A stretch of DNA of 63,198 nucleotides from Bacteroidales bacterium. Lineage in GTDB: Bacteria > Bacteroidota > Bacteroidia > Bacteroidales > JAAYJT01. The number at the start of each line of letters is the position of its first letter. Within the stretch, counting starts at the first letter, position 1. The stretch covers positions 1-63,198 of the forward strand of contig JACZJK010000050.1 of the NCBI GenBank assembly GCA_014860575.1, read 5' to 3'. Both the position numbers and the translations under genes were made by a program. Of the stretch, positions 44,969 to 63,198 are shown one piece after another. A model generated the notes under the pieces. The model was not told the origin of the DNA. It worked only from the letters and a program-made list of their open reading frames with translations, and ran no database searches.

Positions 44969-47900
44969 TTACAATGTGGCTTTGATCTCGGTGGTCTCAA
45001 CCAGGTAATGTCCCAGGAAAATATTTCCCAGGTGCCCGTCAATAGCAATTTTGTCACCGGGTTTCAGAATGATTCCATTGATCGTGCATTCTTTCTTTAC
45101 ATCGTTAACAACCAGATCAGTACAATTTACCACACAGGTTTTTCCGAGCCTGACTGCGGTTACTGCAGCATGTGAAGTAGCGCCGCCTTTAGCCGTCAGC
45201 AGGCCATTGCATTCAAATATCATCCCGATATCGTCGGGCACAGTATCAGGCCGGAGTAAGATAATCCGCTCACCGGGATTTGCCTTAATGAGCCGGTTCA
45301 TATCATCCATATCTATTGCCACAATCCCGTTCATTGCTCCACCCCCAATGCCAATTCCACGGCCAAGAAGTTTCATTTGATCCGGGGAACTGCTGAATAC
45401 ATCAATTCTCGTTGGCTGGTGTAAATCCTGGTCACGGGTTTGAAGGATAAACAGGTCTTCGGCTGCTTCCGATTCAAAGGTAAATTCAATTTCCTGCGGA
45501 CTATACCCCAGGTTCTCAGTCATCTCGGTAGCAATTTGATGAATTTTTCTGTAAATCTCAGGATGTGTGATCTGTAAGGAACTTCCTTCAATTCCGAGTT
45601 GCTTACGCTGGGTTTCGCCAACGGGCAGCGGGGTCACCAATCCACCGACAATGTCTTCACCCTGGCTGCAGAGTGTGAAATCGCCATACAAATGAACGCC
45701 GGGCCGCTCCCGCAAAGGGTTCTGTGTGAACACAACCCCGGTGCCAGAGTTATAGTTCAGATTTCCGAGTATCATTTTTTGTACGATAACGGCTGTGCCC
45801 CATTCATCAGCAATCTGCATATGCTCGCGGTAAACTTTGGCTCGCTCTGAACTCCACGAATCAAATACACAATTTATGGTATAGTTTAACTGCTTGTATA
45901 GATCTTGCTCGAAATGCACCTTGTGATCCTGAATTGCCTGAAGGTATGACTTCGCAATCTGTTTCATGTGATCCGGCGAAAAGTACATTTTCAGGTCAAT
46001 GCTGTAGCGTTGCTTGTAATCGCGCATAATGCTGTCAAAAACATCGCGGTGAACACCATGAGCCATTCCCCAGCTTTGAAGAAAACGGCGGTAGCAGTCC
46101 CAGGATGTCCAGGCAAAATTGCTTTGCTTACTCAGCCCTTCAACCAAATGATCGTTCATACCGACATTCAGGAAAGTATCCATAGCCCCGGGCATAGATA
46201 TAGCAGTCCCTGAGCGAACAGAAAGTAATAATGGATTTTTGGGATCCCCGAATTGCTTTCCGGTAATCCGCTCAAGCCTGCGCAGGTAAAGCATGATGAG
46301 TGAATCAATCTCCTTACGTATTTCGCTATGGTTCGAAATCGCAAAACGGCGACGGAAAACTTCTGTAGTAAGTATGAAACCTGGCGGTACCGGAAATCCT
46401 GCCAGGTATAGCTTTTTCAGGAAAAAGGCTTTTGACCCAAGAAAAATCTGGTTATCAACGTGCAGTGTTTCTTCATAAATGGGGCTGATTACGAGGTCGG
46501 AGTTGTACGACATAACATCGTTGATCAGCTCTGCCGGATTTTTATCAACCATGTTCCTCAGGGAATTTAATATGCGCGAAACCAGGTTGTCGAGGGGTTG
46601 CACTAAAAAAGCGGCGCTGATGATGTCGCGGAAAAACTCTTCGGATTTGCGGTTGATAAGTTGCGATCTTTCTTTTTCAGTTCCTTTGATATCGCGGGCG
46701 TAAAGTTGCGGAATAACCACTTTTATCGGATACTCATAGGATCGCAGGAAATATTTATCAATAGTTACCTTAACGTTATCGGCAATGAACTGGAAAATAT
46801 TAATGTATTGATGAAGCGAAAAACTGCGTGAGGTGAGCGAGTAACGGAACATGCTCAGGTTGGAGTTGAAACCCTGGTTATAAATGCCGTCAAGTTCCAG
46901 CCCTTCCTTAAAATATTCCAACACATTGTAAAGACGGTTCAGCGTTTTGGCCGAAACATAATCGAGGTTTATCCTTGCAATGATCTTCTCCATCAGCCGG
47001 GTGGCAATTTTTTCGAGCCTGAAAGTAAGCCCCAGGGCTTCAAATTTGGGTTCGCGGTAAGTTCCGTACATGGACGGGATTCCTATGGCGATATGCCGCT
47101 TGTGGTAGATGTTTTCCCAGCTCTGACTTGGTTCAGGGTTAAAAATTATCTTTTTCAGGCGCTCCATAAACTGGTAAATCAGTTTTAGGGCAACATCAAA
47201 ATCATCTTTGTGCATCGCTTTTTCGAACCGGCTAATTTCGGTGGGCTCGATAAATGCATAGCGGCGGAGAATGGTTAAGATATCAACAGTTTCAAATGAA
47301 TATTTCTCCTTCAGCAACGCATACAACGCATGGATGCAGGTGAGCCGGTGCAGATCATTTTCGTTTTCGGACGGTAATTTTTTGAGCAAACGTTCGAAGC
47401 GGTCGTTGTTGAGATCCAGTAATTGATCGAAGGTAATTCCGGAGATTTCAAGCAATTGGTTCACGAGACTGTGCACGACTGTGAAATACTCGCTCTCCAG
47501 GTCAATGGATTCAAAAACATCTTCGGGGACGAAAGGCTGCAGCGCATCTTTGTTGCCATCGTGCCAGAACTTAAAGATGCGGCGCGTTAGCTCAATGAGG
47601 GTGTTATTGCTTTCGGTATGCACTTGTTTCCGCAAGAAATGCACCAGGCGGTCCTGCCGTCCGTTCACTTCGTCCATGTTGGTGGTCACATTCCTGATCT
47701 CACCTTCAGCGCCTATTTCATGAAAGTAGACCGGAAAAATGCGGGTTAATTGCTTTACCTTTTTGTAATAGGGTGCAATGTTCGAGTTCAGGATTTTAGT
47801 GATTTCCCGCTGAAACAGGTCCGTGTCGCTAATGAAAATGCCTCCCAGCCTGAGGTTCACAATCAGGGCCGAAAGCAGTTTCTCCATTCCTGTCTGCGAA

Positions 47901-49087
47901 TATTCTATCAGTTCCAGCCACACCCTTATGTTTTTGATGTGGTTCGCATTGACGTTGATTTGCCAGTCCTTGTTTACAAATACGATTCCCGGCGTTTCGA
48001 ACCCAAAATCAATGAGTTTCTTCTCAAAATAGTTTACAAACTGTTTGTCTTCTGTTTCATCCTTGTCAACAATTTTTCTGCCCAGGGTTAAAATACAATC
48101 CAGTACCGCCGACATGTGCTCGGTGCGCAACTCTTCGCATAAAGCAAAAATACGGTCGGTAAAAGCAAATAATTCATCATTTCCAAGTTCATCAATGGCG
48201 CTGCGGAGCACCTTGTTTATGCTCCAGATCAGGCGGTCTTTCATGCTCAACATGCCCGGAAGATGAAGTAAATAGAAGGTGTAGAAAAACTTGTCAATGA
48301 AGCTCGGCAGTTCTTTTGAAAGCGAAGCAAGTCGCCCGGCAATATCATCGAAGGTTGGGATTTCGTCAGTTAATGCATCCCAATCATTTGCTGCATTTAT
48401 TTTTTCATTAACCATTTCGAACCACGGCTTACCGGCTTGTTTGAAGATGTTTCTGAAATCGTTGCTGAGAAATTCCTTTCGTTCTTCATACCATTGCTCA
48501 ATGGCCGTGCTTTGTTCCCAGTATTCGAGATTATGGAGTAAAACCATTTTAACCAGGTTCACGATTTTGCCAGTAAACTCAGGCGCTTCAACCACTTTAC
48601 CAAGATATTTGAAAAAGAACTTTGAGCTTTTTATGTAAGCAGTGGTGTTTGATCCAAGATTGTTCTCAAGCACTTCAAGACATTGATGAATAACAGGGTA
48701 AAGTTCCGTTTTTTTCTCCTTAATGATCTGACTCATAAGTTCAAGCAATGTTTTAACAATCTGCTCGCTGAGGTCTTCTTTTTTACATGTTTCCAAAAGA
48801 ATATTATACAACATAACCGGTTCGGACAAAGCCTTAACAGCCTCCGGTAAGCCGGCATAGAACCAGAAATCGGAAATCAGGATTTCTCGCAGCTGTTCAA
48901 CCACAAATAACCTGTTGCTGAATGGATGAAGGTATTCAATGATACATTCCTGCGCCCGTTTATTGATCCCATAGTAATCCTTCGACAAATCAATGAAGGA
49001 TTGTAGGTTGGCGGGGATCACAATATCCTTATATCTTGTTTCGGCCAGGTTGGCTTCCAGTGCTTTTGAGTAAAACTTTTCAGTCAT
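44969..49087 (-). CDS. Large dikinase-like protein: PPDK ATP-grasp and phosphohistidine domains, no PEP barrel
   Basis: A 1372-residue protein. The first about 875 residues are helix-rich and unrecognised. From about 878 it resembles pyruvate phosphate dikinase: LGSKAFFLKKLYLAGFPVPPGF (shown to start the ATP-grasp domain), SVRSGTAISMPGAMDTF (about 956-972), WGTAVIVQKMILGN, QGEDIVGGLVTP (about 1142), EIEFTFE and LQTRDQ (about 1199-1220). The phospho-carrier histidine is His1306 in TAKGGATSHAAV. Only about 66 residues follow, so the PEP/pyruvate-binding TIM barrel of PPDK and PEP synthase is absent; the domain order is closer to rifampin phosphotransferase. The enzyme should move a phosphate from ATP through His to an unknown acceptor, perhaps bound by the N-terminal region. 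ATG 49087 is chosen over TTG 49111, which is inside a TATCTTTG promoter box. Confidence 0.88.
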   Translation of the reverse strand: MTEKFYSKALEANLAETRYKDIVIPANLQSFIDLSKDYYGINKRAQECIIEYLHPFSNRLFVVEQLREILISDFWFYAGLPEAVKALSEPVMLYNILLETCKKEDLSEQIVKTLLELMSQIIKEKKTELYPVIHQCLEVLENNLGSNTTAYIKSSKFFFKYLGKVVEAPEFTGKIVNLVKMVLLHNLEYWEQSTAIEQWYEERKEFLSNDFRNIFKQAGKPWFEMVNEKINAANDWDALTDEIPTFDDIAGRLASLSKELPSFIDKFFYTFYLLHLPGMLSMKDRLIWSINKVLRSAIDELGNDELFAFTDRIFALCEELRTEHMSAVLDCILTLGRKIVDKDETEDKQFVNYFEKKLIDFGFETPGIVFVNKDWQINVNANHIKNIRVWLELIEYSQTGMEKLLSALIVNLRLGGIFISDTDLFQREITKILNSNIAPYYKKVKQLTRIFPVYFHEIGAEGEIRNVTTNMDEVNGRQDRLVHFLRKQVHTESNNTLIELTRRIFKFWHDGNKDALQPFVPEDVFESIDLESEYFTVVHSLVNQLLEISGITFDQLLDLNNDRFERLLKKLPSENENDLHRLTCIHALYALLKEKYSFETVDILTILRRYAFIEPTEISRFEKAMHKDDFDVALKLIYQFMERLKKIIFNPEPSQSWENIYHKRHIAIGIPSMYGTYREPKFEALGLTFRLEKIATRLMEKIIARINLDYVSAKTLNRLYNVLEYFKEGLELDGIYNQGFNSNLSMFRYSLTSRSFSLHQYINIFQFIADNVKVTIDKYFLRSYEYPIKVVIPQLYARDIKGTEKERSQLINRKSEEFFRDIISAAFLVQPLDNLVSRILNSLRNMVDKNPAELINDVMSYNSDLVISPIYEETLHVDNQIFLGSKAFFLKKLYLAGFPVPPGFILTTEVFRRRFAISNHSEIRKEIDSLIMLYLRRLERITGKQFGDPKNPLLLSVRSGTAISMPGAMDTFLNVGMNDHLVEGLSKQSNFAWTSWDCYRRFLQSWGMAHGVHRDVFDSIMRDYKQRYSIDLKMYFSPDHMKQIAKSYLQAIQDHKVHFEQDLYKQLNYTINCVFDSWSSERAKVYREHMQIADEWGTAVIVQKMILGNLNYNSGTGVVFTQNPLRERPGVHLYGDFTLCSQGEDIVGGLVTPLPVGETQRKQLGIEGSSLQITHPEIYRKIHQIATEMTENLGYSPQEIEFTFESEAAEDLFILQTRDQDLHQPTRIDVFSSSPDQMKLLGRGIGIGGGAMNGIVAIDMDDMNRLIKANPGERIILLRPDTVPDDIGMIFECNGLLTAKGGATSHAAVTAVRLGKTCVVNCTDLVVNDVKKECTINGIILKPGDKIAIDGHLGNIFLGHYLVETTEIKATL

Positions 49088-49108
49088 TTCAGAAACTTTA
49101 TTTTTCTT

Positions 49109-49116
49109 CAAAGATA
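49109..49116 (-). promoter_or_regulatory. -7 box TATCTTTG for the dikinase-like gene
   Basis: TAnnTTTG match that includes the TTG at 49111, giving a leader of about 15-20 nt before ATG 49087. This rules against the upstream TTG as start codon. Confidence 0.5.
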
Positions 49117-49470: not shown

Positions 49471-49806
49471 ATGGCTGAAATAAAAGACAAATTTGCTTTG
49501 AAACGCAGGACAAAAGAAGAGAAGGAGAAGCTTTTACAAGAGATACAAAAGCTTGGGGTTGTAGCTGGTTGCCGCAGATATTCCATTGATCCTTCAACCT
49601 ATTACACCTGGCTTGAAAGGTATCAAGCACACGGCATCAATGGTTTGGAAGACAGGCGTTCACAAAATCATGATGCTATTGTGCGTAAACTTGAGAAAGA
49701 GAACAGAATGCTAAAGGAGCTCATGGCCGAGAAAGATCTGGAGATTAAAATGCAGGCCGAACTTCTAAAAAAAAAGATGGAACAATGGAAGATCGCAAAG
49801 AAGTAG
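49471..49806 (+). CDS. IS3-family transposase OrfA (helix-turn-helix)
   Basis: A 111-residue basic protein: an N-terminal helix-turn-helix (about 15-60, LLQEIQKLGVVAGCRRYSIDPSTYYTW) that binds the inverted repeats, followed by a leucine-zipper-like helix (about 68-105) for dimerisation. It overlaps orfB by 22 bases in the +1 relative frame. Translation can pass into OrfB by a -1 shift at the A AAA AAG heptamer, giving the full transposase. Confidence 0.9.
   Translation: MAEIKDKFALKRRTKEEKEKLLQEIQKLGVVAGCRRYSIDPSTYYTWLERYQAHGINGLEDRRSQNHDAIVRKLEKENRMLKELMAEKDLEIKMQAELLKKKMEQWKIAKK
49770..49776 (+). promoter_or_regulatory. -1 programmed frameshift heptamer A_AAA_AAG
   Basis: The run of nine A and one G at 49767-49776 contains A AAA AAG exactly in phase with orfA codons (AAA 49771-49773, AAG 49774-49776). 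After slipping back one base the orfB frame is open to its stop. This is the classical IS3-family signal. Confidence 0.85.
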
Positions 49807-50831
49807 TCTGCAAAATGGTAGGTTTGGGCATGCGCACAAGCAAAGCGTTGGCAATGGCCGAAATACCCAGAAGCTCGTATTACTATCGTTCAAAAGGAGT
49901 GCGAAAAGGGAAAGAACCCAGTACTCATACTTTGAAAAATGGTGAGCTTGTCAGCAATGAGCAACTTGTAAATGAAATGAATGACATCTTGGGTGTAGAT
50001 TTTATAGACTATGGTTATGCCAGAACTACCAGGGCACTGGCAGAAAAGGGCTATCATGTGAATAAGAAAAAGATCTACAGACTGATGAAAATCAATCATT
50101 TATTGTTAAAGAGAAGAAAAGCAGTGATCAAGAAAAACTACGTGAGTGATTTTGTTTCACTCTGCACTGCGCCGTTTCAGGTGATGGAAATTGATATCAA
50201 ATATGTGTTTATCCATGGTTTACGCAAAAACGCTTATCTCATCACCATATTCGACGTATTTTCACGCGCAGCCCTTGTTTGGAGTATCGATCTCGATATG
50301 AAAGCCTCCCGGGTGATTAATCTGGTTGACCAACTCTTGCAAAAATGGCTTATACCTTGGAACATTGACCCAAAACACACCAAAGTCAGCATAAGAACTG
50401 ACAACGGTTCACAATTTATTGCCGCTCTTTTCCGCCAGCACCTCAAAGAGGCAGATATCACCAACGAGTATATCCAGCCTGCAACGCCTCAACAAAATGG
50501 GCATATCGAATCATTTCATGCTACACTCACAAAACTCGTCTGCAACAAATACTGCTTCGATGATTTGAACCATGCTATAAACGTATTCCATAAATTCTTT
50601 GATGTATATAATAACATAAGAATCATGGAACCAATACTCTACAAAACACCTTCCACTTTCATAAATCTCTGGAAAGAAGGTCGTATTGATGCTAAAATTG
50701 AAAAGAAAAAGGTAATTTATTTCTTCAGAGAAGAGACCACAAGTCATAAACCCGTGGCCTCCTCATCTGAATACTCTTGGGGTAAAAACAAAATTATGTC
50801 TTATTCTACTAACTTTGTAAGTACCGTTTAA
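49785..50831 (+). CDS. IS3-family transposase OrfB (DDE integrase domain)
   Basis: A 348-residue catalytic part. A HTH_21-type region (about 55-110, GYARTTRALAEKGYHVNKKKIYRLM) precedes the RNase-H-fold integrase core. The catalytic triad is Asp137 (EIDIKYV), Asp206 (RTDNGSQF) and Glu242 (QNGHIESFH), with 35 residues between the last two, the DD(35)E signature of IS3. The annotated ATG may be unused; the natural product is the OrfA-OrfB fusion made by frameshifting. Full length, no internal stop. Confidence 0.93.
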   Translation: MEDRKEVVCKMVGLGMRTSKALAMAEIPRSSYYYRSKGVRKGKEPSTHTLKNGELVSNEQLVNEMNDILGVDFIDYGYARTTRALAEKGYHVNKKKIYRLMKINHLLLKRRKAVIKKNYVSDFVSLCTAPFQVMEIDIKYVFIHGLRKNAYLITIFDVFSRAALVWSIDLDMKASRVINLVDQLLQKWLIPWNIDPKHTKVSIRTDNGSQFIAALFRQHLKEADITNEYIQPATPQQNGHIESFHATLTKLVCNKYCFDDLNHAINVFHKFFDVYNNIRIMEPILYKTPSTFINLWKEGRIDAKIEKKKVIYFFREETTSHKPVASSSEYSWGKNKIMSYSTNFVSTV

Positions 50832-51126: not shown

Positions 51127-51134
51127 TAAATTTG
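51127..51134 (+). promoter_or_regulatory. -7 box TAAATTTG for gap
   Basis: TAnnTTTG match 25 bases before the ATG at 51159. Its final TTG is an in-frame but false start codon for gap. Confidence 0.55.
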
Positions 51135-51158
51135 CACCCTCATTTAAAAGAAAAGACT

Positions 51159-52163
51159 ATGACAAAGATTAAAATTGGCATTAACGGCTTTGGCCGAATA
51201 GGACGCAATGTTTTGAAGCTGGCGTATGAGAGATCAAACATGGAAGTTGTCGGTATTAACGACCTGACCAGCACCAAGGTATTGGCTCATCTACTCAAGT
51301 ACGACTCTACCCAGGGCAAATTCAATGGCACCGTTGAATTTGACGATAGCAATATCATCATCAATGGTAAAAAAGTCCCTGTTTTTGCTGAAAAAAATCC
51401 GATCAACATTCCCTGGAGCACTACACCAGATGTTGTAATTGAAGGCACCGGCGTTTTCCGTTCAAAAGAAGGCAGCAAGGGCGGCTATGGTGATCACCTT
51501 AAGAATGGCGCTAAAAAAGTGATCCTTTGTGTTCCTTCAAAAGACAAGATTGATGCTACCATCGTGTTGGGTGTAAATGACAGCGATTTAAAAGATAGCG
51601 ATGAGTGCATTTCAAATGCATCATGTACTACCAATTGCCTTGCTCCTATTGCCAAGGTGCTCAACGATAAATTTGGTATTGAAAATGGTTTTATGACCAC
51701 AATCCATGCCTACACCAACGATCAGGTTATCCTTGATGGCCCGCATACAGACCTGCGTCGTGCCCGTTCGGCTGCTTTATCGCAAATACCAACAACCACC
51801 GGCGCTGCTAAAGCTATCGGGCTGGTAATACCAGAACTTGACGGCAAGTTGGATGGGCTGGCCGTACGCATTCCGACCCCAACCGGTTCGCTGGTTGACC
51901 TGGTTGTTAACCTGAAAGTTGAAACCACCAAGGAAGCCATCAACGCTGCTATGAAAGAAGCCGCTGAAGGCCCAATGAAAGGCATACTCGAATATACCGA
52001 AGACGAAATTGTTTCTATTGATATTGTGCACAATCCGCACTCTTCCATTTTTGATGCTTCAAGCACCATGGTAAATGGGAAGACAATAAAAGTACTTTCA
52101 TGGTACGATAACGAATGGGGTTATTCTGCCCGCGTTGTTGACATGATTGAAAAATTATTTTAA
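51159..52163 (+). CDS. gap: Glyceraldehyde-3-phosphate dehydrogenase
   Basis: Phosphorylating GAPDH of glycolysis. Starts MTKIKIGINGFGRIGRN with the NAD-binding loop; the catalytic cysteine lies in SNASCTTNCLAP (about 146-157) and the partner His further on in the sugar-phosphate domain (ATTGAAKAIG, WYDNEWGYSARV). 334 residues with the ATG at 51159, the normal length; the TTG at 51132 is part of the promoter box. It is monocistronic and closed by a strong bidirectional terminator. Confidence 0.97.
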   Translation: MTKIKIGINGFGRIGRNVLKLAYERSNMEVVGINDLTSTKVLAHLLKYDSTQGKFNGTVEFDDSNIIINGKKVPVFAEKNPINIPWSTTPDVVIEGTGVFRSKEGSKGGYGDHLKNGAKKVILCVPSKDKIDATIVLGVNDSDLKDSDECISNASCTTNCLAPIAKVLNDKFGIENGFMTTIHAYTNDQVILDGPHTDLRRARSAALSQIPTTTGAAKAIGLVIPELDGKLDGLAVRIPTPTGSLVDLVVNLKVETTKEAINAAMKEAAEGPMKGILEYTEDEIVSIDIVHNPHSSIFDASSTMVNGKTIKVLSWYDNEWGYSARVVDMIEKLF

Positions 52164-52253: not shown

Positions 52254-53996
52254 CTATCTGAATCGCAGGATTTTATTGGTTGTGATGTAAATCTCGCCGT
52301 TCGCAGTCTGCAACTGACTTTGCATAAGAATTAACCCGGTTTTTTCTTCTCCTTTCAATCCAAGAGAGATCATTTCTTTCCCTGCCCGCTTGAATGCGAA
52401 TTCTTCCAGTTGTATCATTTTGCCTGTTAAATCGTATAACCTGATGTTCAAAATTCCTGAACTTGGTAAATTATAAGTCAGCTTCAGGTTCTGACCTTCC
52501 AACTGATAGGTGATGAGGTTAAAATTTTTGCTTTCAGGTTTTTTAAAGTCGTTCACTGATGTTAACGTGTCAACGTTAAGCAATGCCGCGTTGCTGTATA
52601 TATCGCAATGCAAGCTCGAAACAAGGCATTTGTACTGGAATTCGTCATAGGCTAACGGCACGGAAGTTAATGTGAGTGCAGGTGTTTCCACGCCTGAATA
52701 TAAACCCTGGTTTTGGAGTATATCCCACGACGTTCCATTATCCTGGCTTTCGTACCACTGATACTGCTCTGCACCGCTGGCTACCACTGTGAAATTTGCA
52801 TCCGATCCTGAATAAATTGTAAGATTTGAAGGGTGGGAATTGATGGCGGGAACCGCAAAAGTGCTGATTTGCCCGTTGATTGTAGAAAGTATGTACTGGA
52901 TTTGATCTGCACTCAAAACAAACGACTGTGCCATAAATATAAGAGGAGTTGTTCCCTGGTTGAAATCAAAAACGAGCTCGAACAGTAAACCATCAGGAAT
53001 GCTTACACCAAGGGCAGCAGACCAGGATATCTGCAAATGCGGAACCGGCACGGTTTGAACCGATGCAGTAGCGCCTTCGATCACAGGGTTCACGTTGGCA
53101 AGGCCTGTAAAACTTGCAACTGAAGGGTTATAGGAAATGAATATCCCGAACTCAATAACATCTTCCAGTGCGAAACCCTGAACAGGAACTGCAACTGTTT
53201 CGTCAGGACATGAACCAACACTTGGGAGCGCAAGCATAGCCGTGAGCTCAGGCAAAACTGTGAGCATTGCTGAATCTGACATGGCTACACAGGTATCGCT
53301 ATCAGCGAGAAAACAACGATACCAATAACCGTCGAGTTCAACGGGAGCCTGTACAACGGTAAGCTCCGATCCGTTTACATTCTGGTAGCCTGCACCATTT
53401 TGGAGGTCATACCATCCCGCTCCATCAAATTCCTGCCACTGATAAGTGCTTGCACCAGTGGCTACAACTGAGAATGTAGCGTTGTTGCCTGCCGTAACAA
53501 CTGTATTTTCAGGATTGGCTGTAATATGTGGGCCCATAATTGCCGAACCATCCTGGGTTGTGAATGGGATTGGCAACAGGTTCACACTCGTAAGATCGCA
53601 GTTAGGGTTAAATGTCAGATCAGAACTGCCGCCTTTGTAAATAAAGTAGAGTTCCAGAAGTGTTCCATTGCTTATATTTCCGGCAGTAGTACTACTCCAG
53701 ACAATGTTGACCTGTGTGGTCGGAACCGTTACCGGGTTGCTGATCAGACCCATAAATTGTGGATCCAAATTGCCATGGCCATCATACTCCAACACAGCAG
53801 TATCATACCCAACATATAGGGTGATGGCTCCTACATTCAGGAAATCTTCAACATGCAGGGTGATCGTTATATCAGAACCGGGACATGATGTAACACTATC
53901 CAGAGAGAGAACAGCAGTTTGTGCAACTGCCAGACTTGCCAGGAAAAGGCTGAAAACCAATGCTACTGTCTTGATTGAATGCGTAATTTGTTTCAT
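52254..53996 (-). CDS. Secreted protein with two cohesin-like modules, Ig-like modules and a diverged T9SS tail
   Basis: A 580-residue exported protein (signal peptide 1-25, ...LASLAVAQ). Order: cohesin-like module 1 (about 26-150; SCPGSDITITLHVEDFLNVGAITLYVGYD, cut here to show the DxF..VGA..L.V.YD signature), Ig-like module 1 (about 155-245; ATGASTYQWQEFDGAGWYDLQ), cohesin-like module 2 (about 255-375; IEFGIFISYNPSVASF), Ig-like module 2 (about 380-470), and a C-terminal domain (about 490-580) of sorting type (LYDLTGKMIQLEEF). Two such modules could hold dockerin partners like the one encoded at 56788-57477. It has its own promoter-like box, apart from the operon upstream. Cohesin identity is by pattern only. 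Confidence 0.78.
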   Translation of the reverse strand: MKQITHSIKTVALVFSLFLASLAVAQTAVLSLDSVTSCPGSDITITLHVEDFLNVGAITLYVGYDTAVLEYDGHGNLDPQFMGLISNPVTVPTTQVNIVWSSTTAGNISNGTLLELYFIYKGGSSDLTFNPNCDLTSVNLLPIPFTTQDGSAIMGPHITANPENTVVTAGNNATFSVVATGASTYQWQEFDGAGWYDLQNGAGYQNVNGSELTVVQAPVELDGYWYRCFLADSDTCVAMSDSAMLTVLPELTAMLALPSVGSCPDETVAVPVQGFALEDVIEFGIFISYNPSVASFTGLANVNPVIEGATASVQTVPVPHLQISWSAALGVSIPDGLLFELVFDFNQGTTPLIFMAQSFVLSADQIQYILSTINGQISTFAVPAINSHPSNLTIYSGSDANFTVVASGAEQYQWYESQDNGTSWDILQNQGLYSGVETPALTLTSVPLAYDEFQYKCLVSSLHCDIYSNAALLNVDTLTSVNDFKKPESKNFNLITYQLEGQNLKLTYNLPSSGILNIRLYDLTGKMIQLEEFAFKRAGKEMISLGLKGEEKTGLILMQSQLQTANGEIYITTNKILRFR

Positions 53997-54066
53997 GATA
54001 TTCAATTTTTTTCGGTCAATTATTTTAAAACCGGCGAAATACCTATTTGGTTTAATTTACACTTCA

Positions 54067-54074
54067 CAAAGGTA
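54067..54074 (-). promoter_or_regulatory. -7 box TACCTTTG for the cohesin-like gene
   Basis: TAnnTTTG match 71 bases before the ATG at 53996. Confidence 0.5.
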
Positions 54075-54183
54075 GCGAAAATGCATTCCGGAGTCAATTT
54101 CATTTTTAACGCCTCAGATATACGATTTTGCTTTCAAGGGGTTGTTTGATCATAAAAATCCCAATATGTATTTTATAAAAACA

Positions 54184-54216
54184 AAAAAGCGGCATTCCTC
54201 ATCAGGGATATGCCGC
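54184..54216 (-). terminator. Terminator of the dockerin / T9SS / anchor operon
   Basis: On the minus strand, GCGGCATATCCC-tgatg-AGGAATGCCGC followed by TTTTTTG, about 100 bases after the stop of the 75-residue anchor gene. Confidence 0.75.
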
Positions 54217-54313
54217 CTAAGTTTTCAGATCCAATATTAAATGCGTATCTGCCTGTAGGTTTCGAAGAAATAATTGCCAGGTATTGGTTCAGAATGCATA
54301 GCACACAGCCTAT

Positions 54314-54541
54314 CTATTCAGCCAGTTTTTTGCGTGCATCATACACTTTTTTGCCTCCGTAGCCGGCAGCCATTAGCAAGAGGAATCCTGCTCCGGCACC
54401 AATTGGTGCACCTCCGCCTGGTGGTTGGTTACCGGGATCTCCATGACCCGGGGGCGGGGGAGGAGAGCTTTGCGCGTTTAATGCAAGCTGAAACATCAGC
54501 AAGAATGCAGGAAGCAATAAAACTTTGAATAGTATTTTCAT
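54314..54541 (-). CDS. 75-residue PID-CTERM-like surface-sorting or anchor protein
   Basis: A tiny protein: signal peptide (1-24, ending NAQS), a proline/glycine-rich link (PPPPPGHGDPGNQPPGGG, about 26-43), a hydrophobic helix (about 47-64, GAGAGFLLLMAAGYGG) and a basic tail KKVYDARKKLAE. This layout matches the short PID-CTERM proteins of Bacteroidota, in which PIDGG precedes a membrane helix and an Arg/Lys-rich end; here the motif reads PIGAG. Such endings resemble exosortase-type sorting signals, but no exosortase is in the window. It lies 27 bases after the T9SS gene in the same operon. Confidence 0.72.
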   Translation of the reverse strand: MKILFKVLLLPAFLLMFQLALNAQSSPPPPPGHGDPGNQPPGGGAPIGAGAGFLLLMAAGYGGKKVYDARKKLAE

Positions 54542-54567
54542 CTCTGTAAAATTATATGTTGAATATT

Positions 54568-56733
54568 TTAATTGATTACCACTTTTCTTGTGGCAGTTTC
54601 GCCTGCCGAAATCATTCTGACAATGTATGAACCGCTGGGAACCGATAATGGAATATTGTTTAAACCTTGTCTGGATTCCTGGCTCAGAATCAACTGGCCC
54701 TGTGTATTGTATAACTCCACCACTGCCATTTCAGCCGGGCTAAGCACGTAAAGCAAATTGCCGTAAGTATAAGCCTGGAGGAGGTTGGTTACAGGGATTT
54801 CTTTATTTCCGACCGTTGTAAAGCTCAGCAGGAAGCGGTTAGCATCATCCTCGCTGGCGGAAGTGAAGGTATATACGGGTTGTTCGCTCAGATTTTGTGT
54901 GTGGTTCAATTTCAGGTCGGTGAGGTTGACAATAACATCACTGATGGTTTCCTGCATTTCAATAATGAAATCAGTATGGGCATTTTTATGGAACCCGAAA
55001 GGAATGCTCATGCCACCGCTCATTTCTGGAAGTGTGTTCGTTGAGAATCTTTTCTCATCAGCAACAGAGTAAAACATAGGAGCGTAGCCCGACATAAAAT
55101 AGGCATCAAACGAAATATCGAAACCCTGAGTCGCTTCGGGGTTGAACTTTACAACACTGCGCTGTGCAGTTAAGCCTTGTGCATCGCCGGCAACAAGAAG
55201 TATGCGTTCATCATCTGATTTATACCAGGGTGTAGTATTATGTACCCTGTTAATTGCCAGCATACTCACTATACCACTTTCCTGAGTTGCAAAAACAAAG
55301 ACTCCGTTGGCAGAGGGAATCGGATCACTTGGTTCAATATCAACATAGCCTTGACCAGATTCGCTCCATATTTTAGCTACTCCAGCTACGTCTCCCCAGG
55401 CCTCACCTCCCCATAGAAGTGCGCTGGCAAATGGATTGCCTACCAGGTTCCAGCCGTAATGATTGTCATTATCGGGAGTACCCGAACTGGTTATAGGAAT
55501 ATTGGCCACGTTCTCAGCATTAACGGGGCCAGTAAAGGTCTTGGTTCCCGCTTCCTGATAGGCTACCAGGTATCCTTCTCCGGAAAGAAAGGAGAAGATA
55601 TTATTTGCTCCAACTTTCTGATTGAGCCAGAGTTGCACTGGTTCATCCCAGCCATAGAAATCATAATTGTTGTTGCTTAATCCATCCGGGGTCCAGTCGC
55701 CGCCAATGACCTGGCCTGAAACCGGTGCTGAAATCAAGTGCCAGCCATCACCATTAACACCCCAGTCGGCAGCGGCGATGTATCGTTCAATGGTTGCTAT
55801 TATGCCGGTAGTATTGTGAATGAGTGATGCGGTGCCTGTGGCATCTGATTGCAAAGTAAGAGCATCTAATGCTGGATTGTCCTTGAATAATTGACCGTTC
55901 ACAGTTAGTTGAGCACTTGGGTTGATAGTAAGTGATCTATTTGTCTCGATCCATAAATTATTTAAAGCATAATTCCCATTAGCAATTCCATCTGCTTTTA
56001 ATAACACATTATTACCTGTATTAGGAGTAGCTGAATTGTGCCAATTTCCGGCAGTACCCCAGTTACCTGCCGTTGTCAATACGCTCCTTGATAAGGGGCG
56101 GCTATTCAAGTCAGAGAAATCAATAAAATGGCTATTTTGATTGGTGATTTCATAGGAACCTCCAAAGTTCCAATCTTCGATATCCTCATCGAATTCGCAC
56201 TCGTTGTAAAAAACTTTGGTTTGAAGAGTAAGATCAAAACTCCATGTCAGATTTGGTTCAACTTCAGGAAAAGTTTCAGTGGATGGTAATCGAAGAAATC
56301 TAACCCTTGCAACCCTTGTTCCTGTAGGTAAAATTTCAGCATCCACGCTACCCGCGATATTGGCTGGATTAATCATTCTGATTCCCTCGAATCCACCTTG
56401 TAAATAATATTCAAAGTCACTATTACCAGGTGCCTTACCTCCACCCAATTGACTGGAACCGGAAACGACAGCAACTGTTGGATCGGTTGGAGATGTACCC
56501 TTAATTAAAGGGTTGATGATGATAAAGGCCTGCATTTGTGAATAGAAAAAATTGTTGGGTCCAGTACGATACAACATGAGGTCAAACTGAAATTCCCGTG
56601 AATTAATTTGTTCAAAATTTTCAAGTCTTGCCTCATAAGTAGGTGCAGGTTGCCAGTTTTGAGCAGTAGCTGTCAGCATAGTGGTTATAAAGCCCAAGGT
56701 TAATAAACATCTTTTTAGTATGATTTTTTTCAT
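54568..56733 (-). CDS. T9SS-secreted protein with cohesin-like N-terminal module
   Basis: A 721-residue exported protein. Signal peptide 1-25 (...TMLTATAQ). The N-terminal part (about 30-190; YEARLENFEQINSREFQFD) is a beta-sandwich pattern common in Bacteroidota surface proteins and could be a distant cohesin relative. The middle (about 205-560) has a beta-helix-like segment (TAGNWGTAGNWHNS, GWHLISAPVSGQ, GWNLVGNPFAS) of the kind found in many T9SS cargo proteins. Type A sorting domain at about 650-721 (VVELYNTQGQLILSQ ... VPSGSYIVRMIS ... RKVVIN). It is the middle gene of the three-gene operon. No catalytic motif recognised. Confidence 0.82.
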   Translation of the reverse strand: MKKIILKRCLLTLGFITTMLTATAQNWQPAPTYEARLENFEQINSREFQFDLMLYRTGPNNFFYSQMQAFIIINPLIKGTSPTDPTVAVVSGSSQLGGGKAPGNSDFEYYLQGGFEGIRMINPANIAGSVDAEILPTGTRVARVRFLRLPSTETFPEVEPNLTWSFDLTLQTKVFYNECEFDEDIEDWNFGGSYEITNQNSHFIDFSDLNSRPLSRSVLTTAGNWGTAGNWHNSATPNTGNNVLLKADGIANGNYALNNLWIETNRSLTINPSAQLTVNGQLFKDNPALDALTLQSDATGTASLIHNTTGIIATIERYIAAADWGVNGDGWHLISAPVSGQVIGGDWTPDGLSNNNYDFYGWDEPVQLWLNQKVGANNIFSFLSGEGYLVAYQEAGTKTFTGPVNAENVANIPITSSGTPDNDNHYGWNLVGNPFASALLWGGEAWGDVAGVAKIWSESGQGYVDIEPSDPIPSANGVFVFATQESGIVSMLAINRVHNTTPWYKSDDERILLVAGDAQGLTAQRSVVKFNPEATQGFDISFDAYFMSGYAPMFYSVADEKRFSTNTLPEMSGGMSIPFGFHKNAHTDFIIEMQETISDVIVNLTDLKLNHTQNLSEQPVYTFTSASEDDANRFLLSFTTVGNKEIPVTNLLQAYTYGNLLYVLSPAEMAVVELYNTQGQLILSQESRQGLNNIPLSVPSGSYIVRMISAGETATRKVVIN

Positions 56734-56787
56734 ATGCGTTGGTATTGATTGAATGGTAATAATATTGTCTTTGTAACGCTCTGGTAA

Positions 56788-57477
56788 TTAATTTGGAACA
56801 ATTTTTGAAACTGCAACTCTTAGGTTATTATAAGCAATAGAATTATCGCTCCCATCAACAACACCATTGCCGTCAATGTCAGTGGAAATATATCCAATTG
56901 CTGCGATCCTAAGTTGATTGTAAATTAATGCCGCATCTGATCCATCAACTACCCCATCCTGGTTCACATCCCCTGCATAAATGCCAAAAACTCCAGACTC
57001 TAACTGTACCTGGTTGCTACCATATGCCTGGCTTGCGGTAGTAGTGAAGTCGTATGAATTTGTATTGGACAAATCAACTGCAACGGCAGAAACTGTTTCC
57101 AAATGATTACGGGTTCGGATAGTAAGGTAATATACTCCCTCGTTAGGAAGATTCACAACTGCAGTTCCATTTTCAAGCAGGTTTATACCAGCAACTTCAT
57201 AGGTTGATCCAATCTGACCATATTGGCCCGGTGTGTGCAACTCAAGGGTAAAACGCTCTGCAATAGGAGAATCCCAGCGGGGAGCAATAAGTCCTCCATC
57301 TTTTACTTCATGCACTTGCCTCATTGTTTCATTGCCAATGTAGAAGCCTTGAAGAAACAATTTGATTGTAAATGAGTTTACTCCTCCCGGAGGCGGTGGA
57401 GGGTACTGTGCCAGGATATTTCCTGATAAGAGCATACAAACAAGTAGTAAACCGGTGTAATTTAAAATTTTGTTCAT
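56788..57477 (-). CDS. Secreted dockerin-type protein
   Basis: A 229-residue protein with a signal peptide (1-24, NILAQ) and a PPPPPGG link. A beta-rich domain (about 33-150; KLFLQGFYIGNETMRQVHE ... GVYYLTIRTRNH) is of a type often placed before dockerin repeats in this phylum. The C-terminal 60 residues hold two calcium-binding F-hand repeats 30 residues apart: Asp170 to Asp181 (DVNQDGVVDGSD) and Asp200 to Asp211 (DIDGNGVVDGSD), each followed by a helix ALIYNQLR / SIAYNNLR. This is a dockerin type I-like pair. First gene of an operon with the T9SS and anchor genes; the cohesin-like gene follows it. Binding between them is inferred. Confidence 0.85.
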   Translation of the reverse strand: MNKILNYTGLLLVCMLLSGNILAQYPPPPPGGVNSFTIKLFLQGFYIGNETMRQVHEVKDGGLIAPRWDSPIAERFTLELHTPGQYGQIGSTYEVAGINLLENGTAVVNLPNEGVYYLTIRTRNHLETVSAVAVDLSNTNSYDFTTTASQAYGSNQVQLESGVFGIYAGDVNQDGVVDGSDAALIYNQLRIAAIGYISTDIDGNGVVDGSDNSIAYNNLRVAVSKIVPN

Positions 57478-57557
57478 AAAGTCCGCCTTTCTTAGTTTTA
57501 ATCTTTTTATTAATGCACGTAATTACTCCATTAATAAAGGATTGAGCACATAGTTTG

Positions 57558-57565
57558 CAAAAATA
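57558..57565 (-). promoter_or_regulatory. -7 box TATTTTTG for the dockerin operon
   Basis: TAnnTTTG match about 81 bases before the ATG at 57477. The region is AT-rich, so chance matches are possible. Confidence 0.35.
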
Positions 57566-60101: not shown

Positions 60102-60482
60102 CTAGTTTAGCTTTTTCATATATCTTACAGTTACCATTGAAGGATTGCTGTGCTCAATAATAAGGTTCTCACCAGTTGCTTCAATAATGATCCAGCTTGA
60201 ACGCTTGCAAAACTCAGTTGATAACACTATTTCATCATCTGAAACCACATAGCTAAAGATCATTTCTTCTTGCTGGTATGATATCGAACCCAGGCCATCC
60301 TGATTGAACTGCATATAAGCATCTTCCAGTTCAATGATTTGCTCTTCGGTTTTGTCGGAGCCTGAATATATGGCGGTTAATTGCTGCCCGATCTGCCAGC
60401 GCCCAACAACATCAACAGATGGTTGTTTGCTGCAGGCTGTGCTTATTGCGATCAGCACTATGAATAATATTAATGTTCTCAT
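60102..60482 (-). CDS. Small lipoprotein, lipocalin-like
   Basis: A 126-residue lipoprotein: MRTLILFIVLIAISTAC with lipidated Cys17. The mature part begins GRWQIGQQLTAIY and is a pattern of short strands (MQFNQDGLGSISYQQEEMIFSYVV) typical of lipocalin-like domains of Bacteroidota. ATG 60482 makes the signal; the ATG at 60509 would add a non-signal extension. Function unknown. Confidence 0.75.
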   Translation of the reverse strand: MRTLILFIVLIAISTACSKQPSVDVVGRWQIGQQLTAIYSGSDKTEEQIIELEDAYMQFNQDGLGSISYQQEEMIFSYVVSDDEIVLSTEFCKRSSWIIIEATGENLIIEHSNPSMVTVRYMKKLN

Positions 60483-60577
60483 AAAAATAACTTGCTTAAT
60501 GCCACACATTAAAGCCAGTAAAAGCTAACTGAATGATTTGTAAAAGAATTTCGCAGGTTTCTACATGCTGAAGTTAC

Positions 60578-61915
60578 CTACCAATTGAGTTGCAGATCTG
60601 TTGAAGGAGAAACACAGTTTCCCAGAACAAATTTTACAACTTTGTCTGAACCTGGATCGGTACTCAGCGGACCTCCATCGGTAGAAGTAAAGGTGTTATA
60701 GTATTGGTATTCAAAACCGCCATTATCATCAGGGACAAGAATAAAGAGCTCAAAAGTAAATTGCTCGCCGGGAATTCTTATCCTGTCGGGGTAGTGTACA
60801 CAAAGTGCCTGGTTCTCATTGCCAAGGTTAGTAAATGGAGAGTGGGGCATCTCGGTGGTTTCGCCATTGAACGTCCGGTAAACATGGATCTTGAAAATAG
60901 CAGGCATGTCTGGTTGTAACCCACCTGTTAAATCTTCATAGTCCGAACCAGCGAAATCCTGCGGCCCATAAGGTGCACCAATGGGTGGCGGTAAAGGAAC
61001 CGAGAGGTCAATGTGGATTATATAATACGGAAATGGCGCCACATCCCAGATCAAATATGTTCCTTTATAGGGGTACTGTCCAAGCGGTAGAGGAACTGAA
61101 GGTAGAATATTTATGCCTTTAATTTTTACTGCCTCGTCATCATCCTGCAAAATACTTGAACCCAGGTCAATGATTATCTGGTTGTTCTCATAAGTAACAG
61201 TTCCATCGGTTGGTTGCTCTCCTGCAAAGATATTCTGTATGGTGGGACCATTCAAATCATAATAGTACCACCAAGGCGAACCATTTCCTCCAAAGTTTCC
61301 TCCGTAGGCTGTTTCGTCCTGGTATTGAACTCCGCCATTGGCACAGATATCGCCGAAGAAGCAGAACTGTCTTACCACGATTTCGGTAACTCCGAACCAT
61401 AAGAACCCAAATTCTCCAATCTTCTCACTGCTGTAACACAAAACTTCTGTTTCAAGCTGGGCTTTCGTAAATGCACTTACTTCGAATTCAAATGCCAATG
61501 GATTTGACACATATTGAGCAAAAAGGCCTCCCGTTACAGGTGCAGCCATAATGATACTGCCCCCGGGGCCATCAAGTAGCAGTACTTTGGTAAGTACGTA
61601 GGTTCCGGCGTCCAGCTTAATTGATTGTGTGTAGAGTTTGCCATTTAGCGTAAATACCAAGGGATAAAATGTAATAAAATCATCATTGCTATCCTTCACC
61701 TCAATTTCCGCGACTGTTGGTATAAGCAGGTTCCCATCAATATCTACCGGACAGTCAAAATTCCAGGGGTCGTCATCCTTAAGTCCCGTTGGATCAACAA
61801 GATCAAAGCTAAATGAAACATCCTGTTTAATAATAGTTTTCCTGACCTCATCCTTTTGGCAACTTGCCATCAGGAAAGCCAGGATAACAATTACTGCTGA
61901 TATTTTCATTCTCAT
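60578..61915 (-). CDS. Hypothetical lipoprotein, paralogue of the next gene
   Basis: A 445-residue lipoprotein (MRMKISAVIVILAFLMASC, lipidated Cys19). Two regions are shared with the protein at 62104: the block FFGDIC (about residue 190) and the C-terminal about 100 residues (PHSPFTNLG ... ALCVHYPDRIR ... FTFELFILVP ... VVKFVLGNC). The middle is unique. No catalytic motif is recognised; it is probably a surface-exposed binding protein. It ends without a T9SS tail. Confidence 0.75.
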   Translation of the reverse strand: MRMKISAVIVILAFLMASCQKDEVRKTIIKQDVSFSFDLVDPTGLKDDDPWNFDCPVDIDGNLLIPTVAEIEVKDSNDDFITFYPLVFTLNGKLYTQSIKLDAGTYVLTKVLLLDGPGGSIIMAAPVTGGLFAQYVSNPLAFEFEVSAFTKAQLETEVLCYSSEKIGEFGFLWFGVTEIVVRQFCFFGDICANGGVQYQDETAYGGNFGGNGSPWWYYYDLNGPTIQNIFAGEQPTDGTVTYENNQIIIDLGSSILQDDDEAVKIKGINILPSVPLPLGQYPYKGTYLIWDVAPFPYYIIHIDLSVPLPPPIGAPYGPQDFAGSDYEDLTGGLQPDMPAIFKIHVYRTFNGETTEMPHSPFTNLGNENQALCVHYPDRIRIPGEQFTFELFILVPDDNGGFEYQYYNTFTSTDGGPLSTDPGSDKVVKFVLGNCVSPSTDLQLNW

Positions 61916-62103: not shown

Positions 62104-63198
62104 TTAGGGTGTAAGCTGGGTTAACTTAAATCCTTGCATCCCGTATGATTTTTTTGGATCTCCAGGACCTTCTGCTCCGACATTCTCTGAGATAACTTCG
62201 AATGTTCCATCTGCACCGCTTTGGATTCCGGTCCATTTCACAACATTGCCTTCTGTGGTATTAAAGCCTCCATTAATTTTAATCACAGCCTGGCTGACAG
62301 CAATAACACCTGATCCTGAACTGCTGGCATTCGTATAGCTGTCAGCACCAGCAATCGTAAACCTGCTCCACCTTGAACCTGCACCAGTTCCGGCGTAAGT
62401 GATACCGTTTCTGTTAACCGTTGCTGTAAATTCGTAAATTTTTGAAGGATCTAAACCTGTAAAGGTTGCTTTGTAAGACCAATCGAATGATGAGCTATTA
62501 TATGATGCGCTCTCATTAAGATTAAGTATTCCATTAAAGGTTGTATGTGCATCAGTACCAGCATCAGGCATAGAACCCAGGCTTCCCGAAACGTTAACTG
62601 CTGCCATTGTTACAGTAACTGTAGTGTTATTTCCGGTTGCAAAATCTTTTAAGAGGCCTGAGGGGGTTTCAAAACCGCCACCTCCTCCGAGGTACCCACT
62701 GAAAATCGTTGTGTTTGGAGCGCTGCCGGAAGCCGGCCCTACGCAATCATTGAACGCATCCCAATCTACGATTCCACCTTGTCCGGGTCCCTGAGGTGGA
62801 TCTAGCCATGAATAAATATTTGTAGACATAGGAGAGCATGTTCCAATTGCGAAATCAACTATTCCCTGAGCTCCTATTTGAGTCAATGGAGTGCCATCAT
62901 TCGTGGTATAGGTTGCGTAAGTCTGCCAATCAAAAACACCAGGTGTTGTGGTAGGAACCCAAACCTGAAGTTCAAAGGTGAAGACATCTGCCATTCTCAG
63001 GTAATCGGGGTATTGTACGCAAAGAACCTGGCCAGTGCCATAAATAGAAATGTTGTCAAAAGGTGAATTCGGTACTTCCACGTTATTTCTTTTAACTATC
63101 ACTCTCATTACGGCAACTTCATCAACCATGATACCTCCCTGGGCATAGATTGATCCTTCATATGCTTCAGGGTTCAAAATACAAATATCACCAAAGAA
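62104..63198 (-). CDS. Partial secreted protein with C-terminal jelly-roll-like domain; 5' end off the window
   Basis: An open frame that runs to the right edge; 364 codons are visible and the true start lies beyond. Its first visible residues are FFGDICILNPEA, matching FFGDIC of the paralogue at 60578, which supports reading past the internal TTG at 63177. About residues 30-125 (FDNISIYG ... LCVQYPDYLR ... FTFELQVWVP ... VDFAIGTC) repeat the C-terminal region of the paralogue. The rest (about 140-364) is an extra domain with YKATFTGLDPSKIYEFTATVNR and GSRWSRFTIAGADSYTNAS, a beta-sandwich type seen in surface proteins. No T9SS tail is visible at the end. Confidence 0.78.
   Translation of the reverse strand, partial: FFGDICILNPEAYEGSIYAQGGIMVDEVAVMRVIVKRNNVEVPNSPFDNISIYGTGQVLCVQYPDYLRMADVFTFELQVWVPTTTPGVFDWQTYATYTTNDGTPLTQIGAQGIVDFAIGTCSPMSTNIYSWLDPPQGPGQGGIVDWDAFNDCVGPASGSAPNTTIFSGYLGGGGGFETPSGLLKDFATGNNTTVTVTMAAVNVSGSLGSMPDAGTDAHTTFNGILNLNESASYNSSSFDWSYKATFTGLDPSKIYEFTATVNRNGITYAGTGAGSRWSRFTIAGADSYTNASSSGSGVIAVSQAVIKINGGFNTTEGNVVKWTGIQSGADGTFEVISENVGAEGPGDPKKSYGMQGFKLTQLTP

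Follow-up and report, generated by a model that had tools for sequence, protein, structure and literature searches.

The stretch of DNA described here, called the window throughout, comprises 63,198 nucleotides of contig JACZJK010000050.1 from a Bacteroidales bacterium (assembly GCA_014860575.1). Its minus strand carries a cluster of four genes in which cohesin and dockerin modules, the lock-and-key modules known from cellulose-digesting clostridia, are found beside a cargo protein of the type IX secretion system (T9SS) and a 75-residue protein of the PID-CTERM type, here called the mini-protein. Reading 5' to 3', the order is the dockerin protein W_doc (56788-57477), a gap of 54 bp, the cargo W_cargo (54568-56733), a gap of 26 bp, the mini-protein (54314-54541), roughly 0.3-0.4 kb, and the cohesin protein W_coh (52254-53996). 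All four genes named in the original prediction, an earlier reading of this DNA, were found where it had placed them. As for its overall interpretation, the cohesin fold, the dockerin, the T9SS cargo, the PID-CTERM-like protein and the exosortase genes stood, and the cohesin nature of the cargo N-terminus did not. The parts of the cluster are as follows.

52254-53996, minus strand: W_coh, with signal peptide, cohesin 1, immunoglobulin (Ig)-like 1, cohesin-like 2, Ig-like 2 and a C-terminal region
About 53532-53918, minus strand: cohesin 1 of W_coh (PF00963)
About 53247-53528, minus strand: Ig-like 1 of W_coh
About 52839-53237, minus strand: cohesin-like 2 of W_coh, assigned by alignment to cohesin-Ig units of relatives
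About 52563-52835, minus strand: Ig-like 2 of W_coh
54314-54541, minus strand: PID-CTERM-like mini-protein of 75 residues (NF046080 below cut-off; aligned to paralogues)
54568-56733, minus strand: W_cargo, a T9SS cargo (TIGR04183)
About 56119-56661, minus strand: N-terminal domain of W_cargo, with no assigned fold
About 54814-56088, minus strand: module of about 420 residues in W_cargo, common to PID loci
About 54571-54786, minus strand: T9SS C-terminal domain (CTD) of W_cargo (TIGR04183, CTD fold)
56788-57477, minus strand: W_doc, with signal peptide, a module with an RNH motif and a C-terminal type I dockerin
About 56791-56976, minus strand: type I dockerin of W_doc (PF00404)

The cohesin protein

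W_coh matches the Pfam family Cohesin (PF00963) at 30.6 bits against a cut-off of 24.1, in one stretch that falls in module 1, and the Ig family PF13927 at 37.6 bits, above its curated cut-off; two Ig-like modules are present in the protein. In an AlphaFold2 model of residues 22-250 (predicted local distance difference test, pLDDT, 95.5), module 1 superposes on the cohesin 5nrk_A with a Z score of 18.2 and a root-mean-square deviation of 1.9 over 129 residues, and the second domain superposes on Ig domains (Z about 13). A profile built from the window's cohesins and those of relatives matched 16 PDB sequences, each of them a cohesin, a scaffoldin or a chain from a cohesin complex. Judged by this model, module 1 appears to be a true cohesin, and its fold excludes, for module 1, the case of an unrelated Ig-like sandwich. 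The original prediction had described two cohesin-like modules and proposed structure prediction as a check; module 1 is backed by both score and fold, and module 2, which has no Pfam stretch, is backed by sequence alignment only (to relatives' cohesin-Ig units, e.g., L043 g2, expectation value, E, 9e-22). The C-terminal region of W_coh aligns in part to T9SS-tailed relatives such as L022 g2, which scores for T9SS.

The dockerin protein and the dockerins of relatives

W_doc matches Dockerin_1 (PF00404) at 30.1 bits (cut-off 22.9). By eye, its two calcium loops, DVNQDGVVDGSD and DIDGNGVVDGSD, have the canonical form, with D or N at positions 1, 3, 5, 9 and 12, so that the dockerin-type protein with two calcium loops was rightly recognised. 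No T9SS tail was found in W_doc (tail model E 2.8). In L037 its homologue is the C-terminus of a protein with four cohesins (blastp E 1.7e-14), and on this alignment one relative fuses a dockerin module of the window type to four cohesins.

The two repeats of these dockerins resemble each other closely. Over 15 positions in W_doc and 17 others, identity is 0.55 within a protein versus 0.19 between proteins (p<=2e-5), the repeats having been aligned by hand, which may favour within-protein likeness, and L108 having been left out for an insertion; without the calcium ligands the values are 0.52 and 0.13. Such likeness is what symmetric, lineage-specific partner recognition would give. Dockerins of the W_doc type occur in at least 14 of the 35 genomes searched, with at least 63, at least 53 and at least 40 matches in genomes G110, G172 and G119, respectively, and one listed in the genome of the window. 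Cohesin matches are present in 12 of the 14 dockerin-positive genomes versus seven of the 21 others (p 0.005; dockerin status among the matches listed).

The three dockerin-rich genomes bring in the first alternative, a cellulosome-like degradative complex in which cohesins hold enzymes that bear dockerins, as they may do in those relatives. Twenty of their dockerin proteins include at least three matches to Peptidase_C10, at least two to Peptidase_M14 and at least one each to Peptidase_C1, PAD_porph and Alpha-amylase (among the 25 of 42 matching families listed), and a similar inference is printed for Cloacimonadota in the accessible part of PMC8542988. The genome of the window tells against such a complex at this locus: it has a single listed dockerin of the W_doc type, and a Pfam search for dockerin proteins, proposed earlier as a check, returned eight matches, three of them above cut-off, and no enzyme domain over the Pfam cut-off was found on these three proteins (the genome being 95% complete). 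Nothing in this genome thus points to an enzymatic cellulosome, in keeping with the earlier suggestion that the cluster, for lack of a glycosidase, could be non-cellulosomal, and a degradative complex is an improbable account of the cluster.

Two side observations concern G110, G172 and G119. Several of the dockerin proteins examined in them are peptidases, and by eye the dockerin recognition stretch is nearly uniform inside each genome and different between them.

The recurrent cassette

The genome of the window has 11 cohesin matches, seven of them above cut-off. Several lie in C44 (L022), which has the layout of a five-gene cassette: a T9SS adhesin with cohesin, a cohesin-Ig protein, a multi-cohesin protein with a dockerin-like end, a T9SS cargo and a PID-CTERM protein. 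In C44, g1 encodes a 1512-residue T9SS adhesin with cohesin, g2 a cohesin-Ig-T9SS protein (its cohesin below the Pfam cut-off at 16.5 bits), g3 a protein that has four cohesins and a dockerin-like C-terminus but lacks a T9SS tail, and g4 a cohesin-type T9SS cargo (its tail below the T9SS cut-off at 10.8 bits), after which comes the mini-protein. The same order is found in L036, L037, L039 and L040 (with g1 cut or broken up in the last three), and in L043, where no PID gene was found; in blastp searches from the L022 genes, every counterpart was recovered at E 2e-11 or better. The best blastp matches of W_coh are the cassette g2 proteins (E 2e-84 for L037 g2 to 7e-21), and W_coh corresponds to the cohesin-Ig gene in duplicate, W_cargo to the cassette cargo (E 2e-104 to L043 g4). 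On these alignments the cassette recurs in other families of the order, and the window holds a rearranged variant of it. Most of the relatives found are metagenome genomes named as Bacteroidales or Bacteroidetes.

The T9SS cargo and its shared module

The C-terminus of W_cargo matches the T9SS tail family TIGR04183 at 37.7 bits (cut-off 23), and its modelled CTD resembles the RemA CTD 8gl6_D (Z 9.9 over 72 residues), in agreement with its earlier designation as a T9SS cargo. The suggestion that its N-terminus may also be cohesin-like fared worse: hhalign gave a probability of 0.1%, residues 1-213 were modelled at a pLDDT below 50 and a PDB profile search returned no match under E 0.2, leaving the cohesin nature of this region unproven. 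The N-terminal domain has 23 matches in six of 295 genomes.

The shared module of about 420 residues is present in 54 of 78 PID loci. In W_cargo it has no Pfam or NCBIfam match above cut-off; in a search for a solved relative of it, Foldseek gave no convincing match to the whole, and the rows of a second structural comparison mainly cover the T9SS tail. In a search of the window's own genome with the module model, three PID-linked cargos take the top rank, which is biased because all three are in the model.

The mini-protein and the exosortases of its genome

By eye, the mini-protein consists of a signal peptide, a Pro/Gly-rich stretch of about 22 residues, an APIGAG motif, a hydrophobic helix and a basic tail. 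It is 80% identical to one paralogue and 49% identical to a second (C44), which reaches 26.3 bits for PID_CTERM (NF046080; cut-off 26); through these paralogues the mini-protein is homologous to the PID-CTERM family, as had been proposed, though it scores below the cut-off itself. The genome has five PID_CTERM matches, three of which are short proteins. Each short PID-CTERM-like gene lies near a cohesin gene, at roughly 0.3-0.4 kb in the window, 2 kb in C44 and 6 kb in C16 (a cohesin below cut-off, the nearest one above it being at 9 kb), and this proximity in three places is more than chance. A check of the genome for exosortase genes (TIGR04178), also proposed earlier, found two above cut-off, one of them about 0.7 kb from the C44 PID gene.

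Two side observations concern exosortase genes. On the plus strand of L022 (5475-7578), convergent with the PID gene, the exosortase gene (6442-7041) is accompanied by genes for a membrane-type protein of 171 residues and a second protein of 272 residues, which ends in PVPLSNWALYLGIFLMIAFVVIRFRRMI, itself sorting-signal-like. In L035 (7979-10363, plus strand), the second exosortase gene of the genome lies 81 bp behind a gene with a T9SS-like C-terminus (by eye).

Pairing of PID-CTERM genes with T9SS cargo

The genomic surroundings of PID genes were compared for 84 genes in 78 stretches: three from the window's own genome, five chosen for a nearby cohesin, ten taken for context and 60 taken from the PID match list with neighbours unseen and exosortase places known beforehand. 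The order-wide search behind this list gave at least 150 PID matches; two PID genes of the window's genome fell below its threshold and were added separately. PID matches were counted at E 0.01 and exosortases at E 1e-4. Both the module model and the tail model derive from PID loci, and 20 loci of other orders were kept out of them.

A same-strand open reading frame (ORF) lies within 200 bp in front of 60 of the 84 PID genes; seven have one farther off, 13 have one on the opposite strand and four have none. The PID gene stands directly behind a module gene in 55 of 84 genes, 36 of 54 genomes and 23 of 33 families, and in 40 of the 62 PID genes from the stretches taken with neighbours unseen. 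At E 0.01 a T9SS tail was detected in 54 of the 60 same-strand upstream neighbours versus nine of 100 control ORFs, which came from the same loci and include cassette genes (p 4e-26). In one scan with both models, the identical 55 of 60 neighbours match module and tail; of the five without the module, two are dockerin proteins (L067, L078), and L065, L071 and L089 match neither.

The pairing extends beyond the order. PID matches occur in 59 of 395 genomes of the phylum (E 1e-4), and among the 20 PID loci of other orders, 13 have the module in the preceding gene (12 within 200 bp), 11 match the tail model and seven lack the module. Order-wide, a PID match is found in at least 77 and an exosortase in 123 of 295 genomes; the exosortase is present in 71 of 77 PID-positive versus 52 of 218 PID-negative genomes (p 3e-27; PID among the matches listed). 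An exosortase gene within 2 kb, found for 17 of 150 PID genes among the matches listed, is another PID context.

Cohesins are a lesser companion of these genes. In the 60 stretches taken with neighbours unseen, a cohesin was found in two and a dockerin-type match in 12. A cohesin near a PID gene was counted in five of 38 cases versus 0.69 expected when the window's genome is left out (p 6e-4), and in eight of 41 versus 0.74 when its two hand-added PID genes are included. PID-type mini-proteins accompany the preceding T9SS cargo gene, not cohesins in themselves. As a separate observation, one PID-CTERM match (L125, PWMS01000111.1) comes from a record whose title reads Mollicutes bacterium; the contig was probably mis-binned.

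A proposed two-layer surface assembly

The reading favoured here, by a modest lean, is that the cluster belongs, as a small member without enzymes, to a two-layer surface-assembly system of Bacteroidota. It draws support from the cohesin fold, the dockerin, the cassette order, the L037 fusion, the symmetry of the dockerin repeats and the co-occurrence of dockerins with cohesins, and equally from the pairing of PID gene and module, the T9SS tails upstream, the loci of other orders and the co-occurrence with exosortases. In the first layer, a T9SS cargo with the module and the PID-CTERM mini-protein directly behind it would work as a pair; the pairing comes from gene order, and we infer the exosortase processing and the joint function. 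By analogy with known families, an exosortase of the inner membrane would cut the mini-protein near its PI[DG] motif, and the T9SS would carry the cargo and the tailed cohesin proteins to the surface. In the second layer, cohesin proteins, most of them T9SS-tailed, would display docking sites there, and a dockerin protein exported by Sec and lacking a T9SS tail would be held by a cohesin through its symmetric calcium-loop dockerin. For the window this would mean that W_coh, W_doc and W_cargo form an adhesin-like assembly at the surface and that the mini-protein serves the cargo by anchoring, maturation or delivery of a conjugate, all of which fit.

Several observations weigh against this reading. 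Among the parts of the window, no NCBIfam T9SS match was found in W_coh (own tail model E 7), and the mini-protein scores only 16.9 bits for NF046080 against the cut-off of 26 and has APIG where the family has PID. Among the comparisons, two of the 14 dockerin-positive genomes have no cohesin match, 24 of the 84 PID genes lack a same-strand ORF in the preceding 200 bp, no exosortase was found in six of the 77 PID-positive genomes, and one of the three above-cut-off dockerin proteins of the window's own genome (C43) also carries a T9SS tail (28.5 bits, cut-off 27). Nor is the module confined to the neighbourhood of PID genes: four of nine module proteins of the window's genome lie outside its three clusters, and seven of 15 PID-negative genomes have the module. 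A cohesin is found in 10 and a dockerin-type match in 19 of the 78 PID loci, and in the three dockerin-rich genomes seven of 120 dockerin places, among the matches listed, have a listed PID gene no more than 12 kb away. The figures for cohesins (10 of 78) and dockerins (seven of 120) make the cohesin-dockerin part a branch of the PID world rather than its core. Two stricter ideas were rejected on these counts: a one-to-one pairing of module and PID gene, and the dockerin as a PID-specific part.

The scarcity of cohesins at PID loci and the module without PID genes would also suit a loose island of T9SS adhesins, in which Ig, cohesin and dockerin domains have been shuffled without interacting and the mini-protein shares the operon by chance. 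Such an island is unlikely: gene order is conserved over several families, the excess of cohesins near PID genes persists with the window's genome excluded, and the L037 fusion, the symmetric dockerin repeats and the pairing of cargo and PID gene in other orders all speak against it.

The two-layer reading can be widened into a more tentative proposal, which we hold possible though short of probable. The module-bearing cargo and the PID-CTERM protein would form a two-gene unit beyond this order, in which a peptide conjugate made by the exosortase matures or anchors the cargo; exosortase and T9SS would then be one joint display pathway, to which some lineages have added cohesin-dockerin assemblies whose dockerin proteins reach the surface via a cohesin partner.

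A further alternative, compatible with the two-layer assembly, has the dockerin protein cross the T9SS pore on a cohesin-bearing cargo, which would make the dockerin and the T9SS tail two alternative means of export. The T9SS-tail model has no match in any of 20 dockerin proteins of the W_doc type with a complete C-terminus from the three dockerin-rich genomes (22 at the start, L198 and L207 having been dropped for a C-terminus lost at the stretch end), and the same holds for W_doc. Five of the eight cohesin proteins examined in the window's genome have a T9SS tail above the curated cut-off (C44 g1 and g2, C16 a and b, and C57), and enzyme families that are T9SS-tailed elsewhere carry a dockerin in these relatives. 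Against this stand the three cohesin proteins without an above-cut-off tail (W_coh, C44 g3 and C44 g4) and the C43 protein, which combines dockerin and T9SS tail and for which a general rule that the two exclude each other was rejected. Other routes through the outer membrane also exist as possibilities, and the passage through the pore is something that we purely infer; it is a doubtful, though not far-fetched, account of dockerin export.

Other features of the window

A promoter and terminator scan gave about as many sites as shuffled sequences. On the plus strand, two overlapping ORFs (49471-50831), which we take to resemble an IS3-type transposase pair, sit between what are presumably a PPDK-like gene (44969-49111) and a GAPDH-like gene (51132-52163). 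On the minus strand, a small lipoprotein-like ORF (60102-60509) has a weak NCBIfam match to a BSAP-5i family immunity protein (20.4 bits, cut-off 150), and two adjoining surface-type proteins (60578-61915 and 62104-63177) have stretches in common by eye, e.g., YPDxLR/IR...FTFEL; no Pfam family was matched by the protein at 60578-61915 in a Pfam scan.

Comparison with known systems

The mini-protein shares with PID-CTERM proteins (NF046080) and their exosortases (TIGR04178) the signal peptide, motif, helix and basic tail and the presence of an exosortase in the genome, and differs in that the window member falls below the family cut-off. In the literature searched, as far as its accessible parts go, no report of the pairing of PID-CTERM genes with T9SS cargo was met, and no use of the term PID-CTERM was found; the authors of NF046080 in NCBIfam may have noted the link. 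In Flavobacterium johnsoniae, a different species from that of the window, xrtF and the T9SS genes porZ, porV, porU and sprA came from one surface-colonisation screen in a 2024 study, whose accessible part leaves the substrates of the XrtF exosortase to future work (PMC10936215). A mini-protein with an exosortase-type signal, repeatedly found behind one T9SS cargo family, offers a concrete candidate for an exosortase substrate, with a partner, and its relatives often come after secreted surface proteins of a single family, a possible sign that two export pathways are linked.

For the cohesin-dockerin branch, a close parallel is 'Ca. Stygibacter' of the Cloacimonadota, for which a tandem-cohesin scaffoldin with a C-terminal domain of the T9SS type has been inferred alongside proteins with C-terminal dockerins; in contrast to the window, the dockerins there are on enzymes (GH18, GH57, S8/S53, C25), and the accessible part of the report makes no mention of PID-CTERM, the cassette or the cargo module (PMC8542988).

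The clostridial cellulosome is matched by the window in its cohesin fold (5nrk_A being the ScaB cohesin of A. cellulolyticus) and in its symmetric two-loop dockerin, and by the cassette in a multi-cohesin protein with a dockerin-like end of its own. Unlike the cellulosome, the window's genome has dockerin proteins without an enzyme domain, several T9SS-tailed cohesin proteins and an exosortase-type mini-protein in the operon. The branch poses the problem of outer-membrane passage for dockerin proteins that have no tail, and it would extend cohesin docking from enzyme complexes to enzyme-free surface assemblies of the T9SS.

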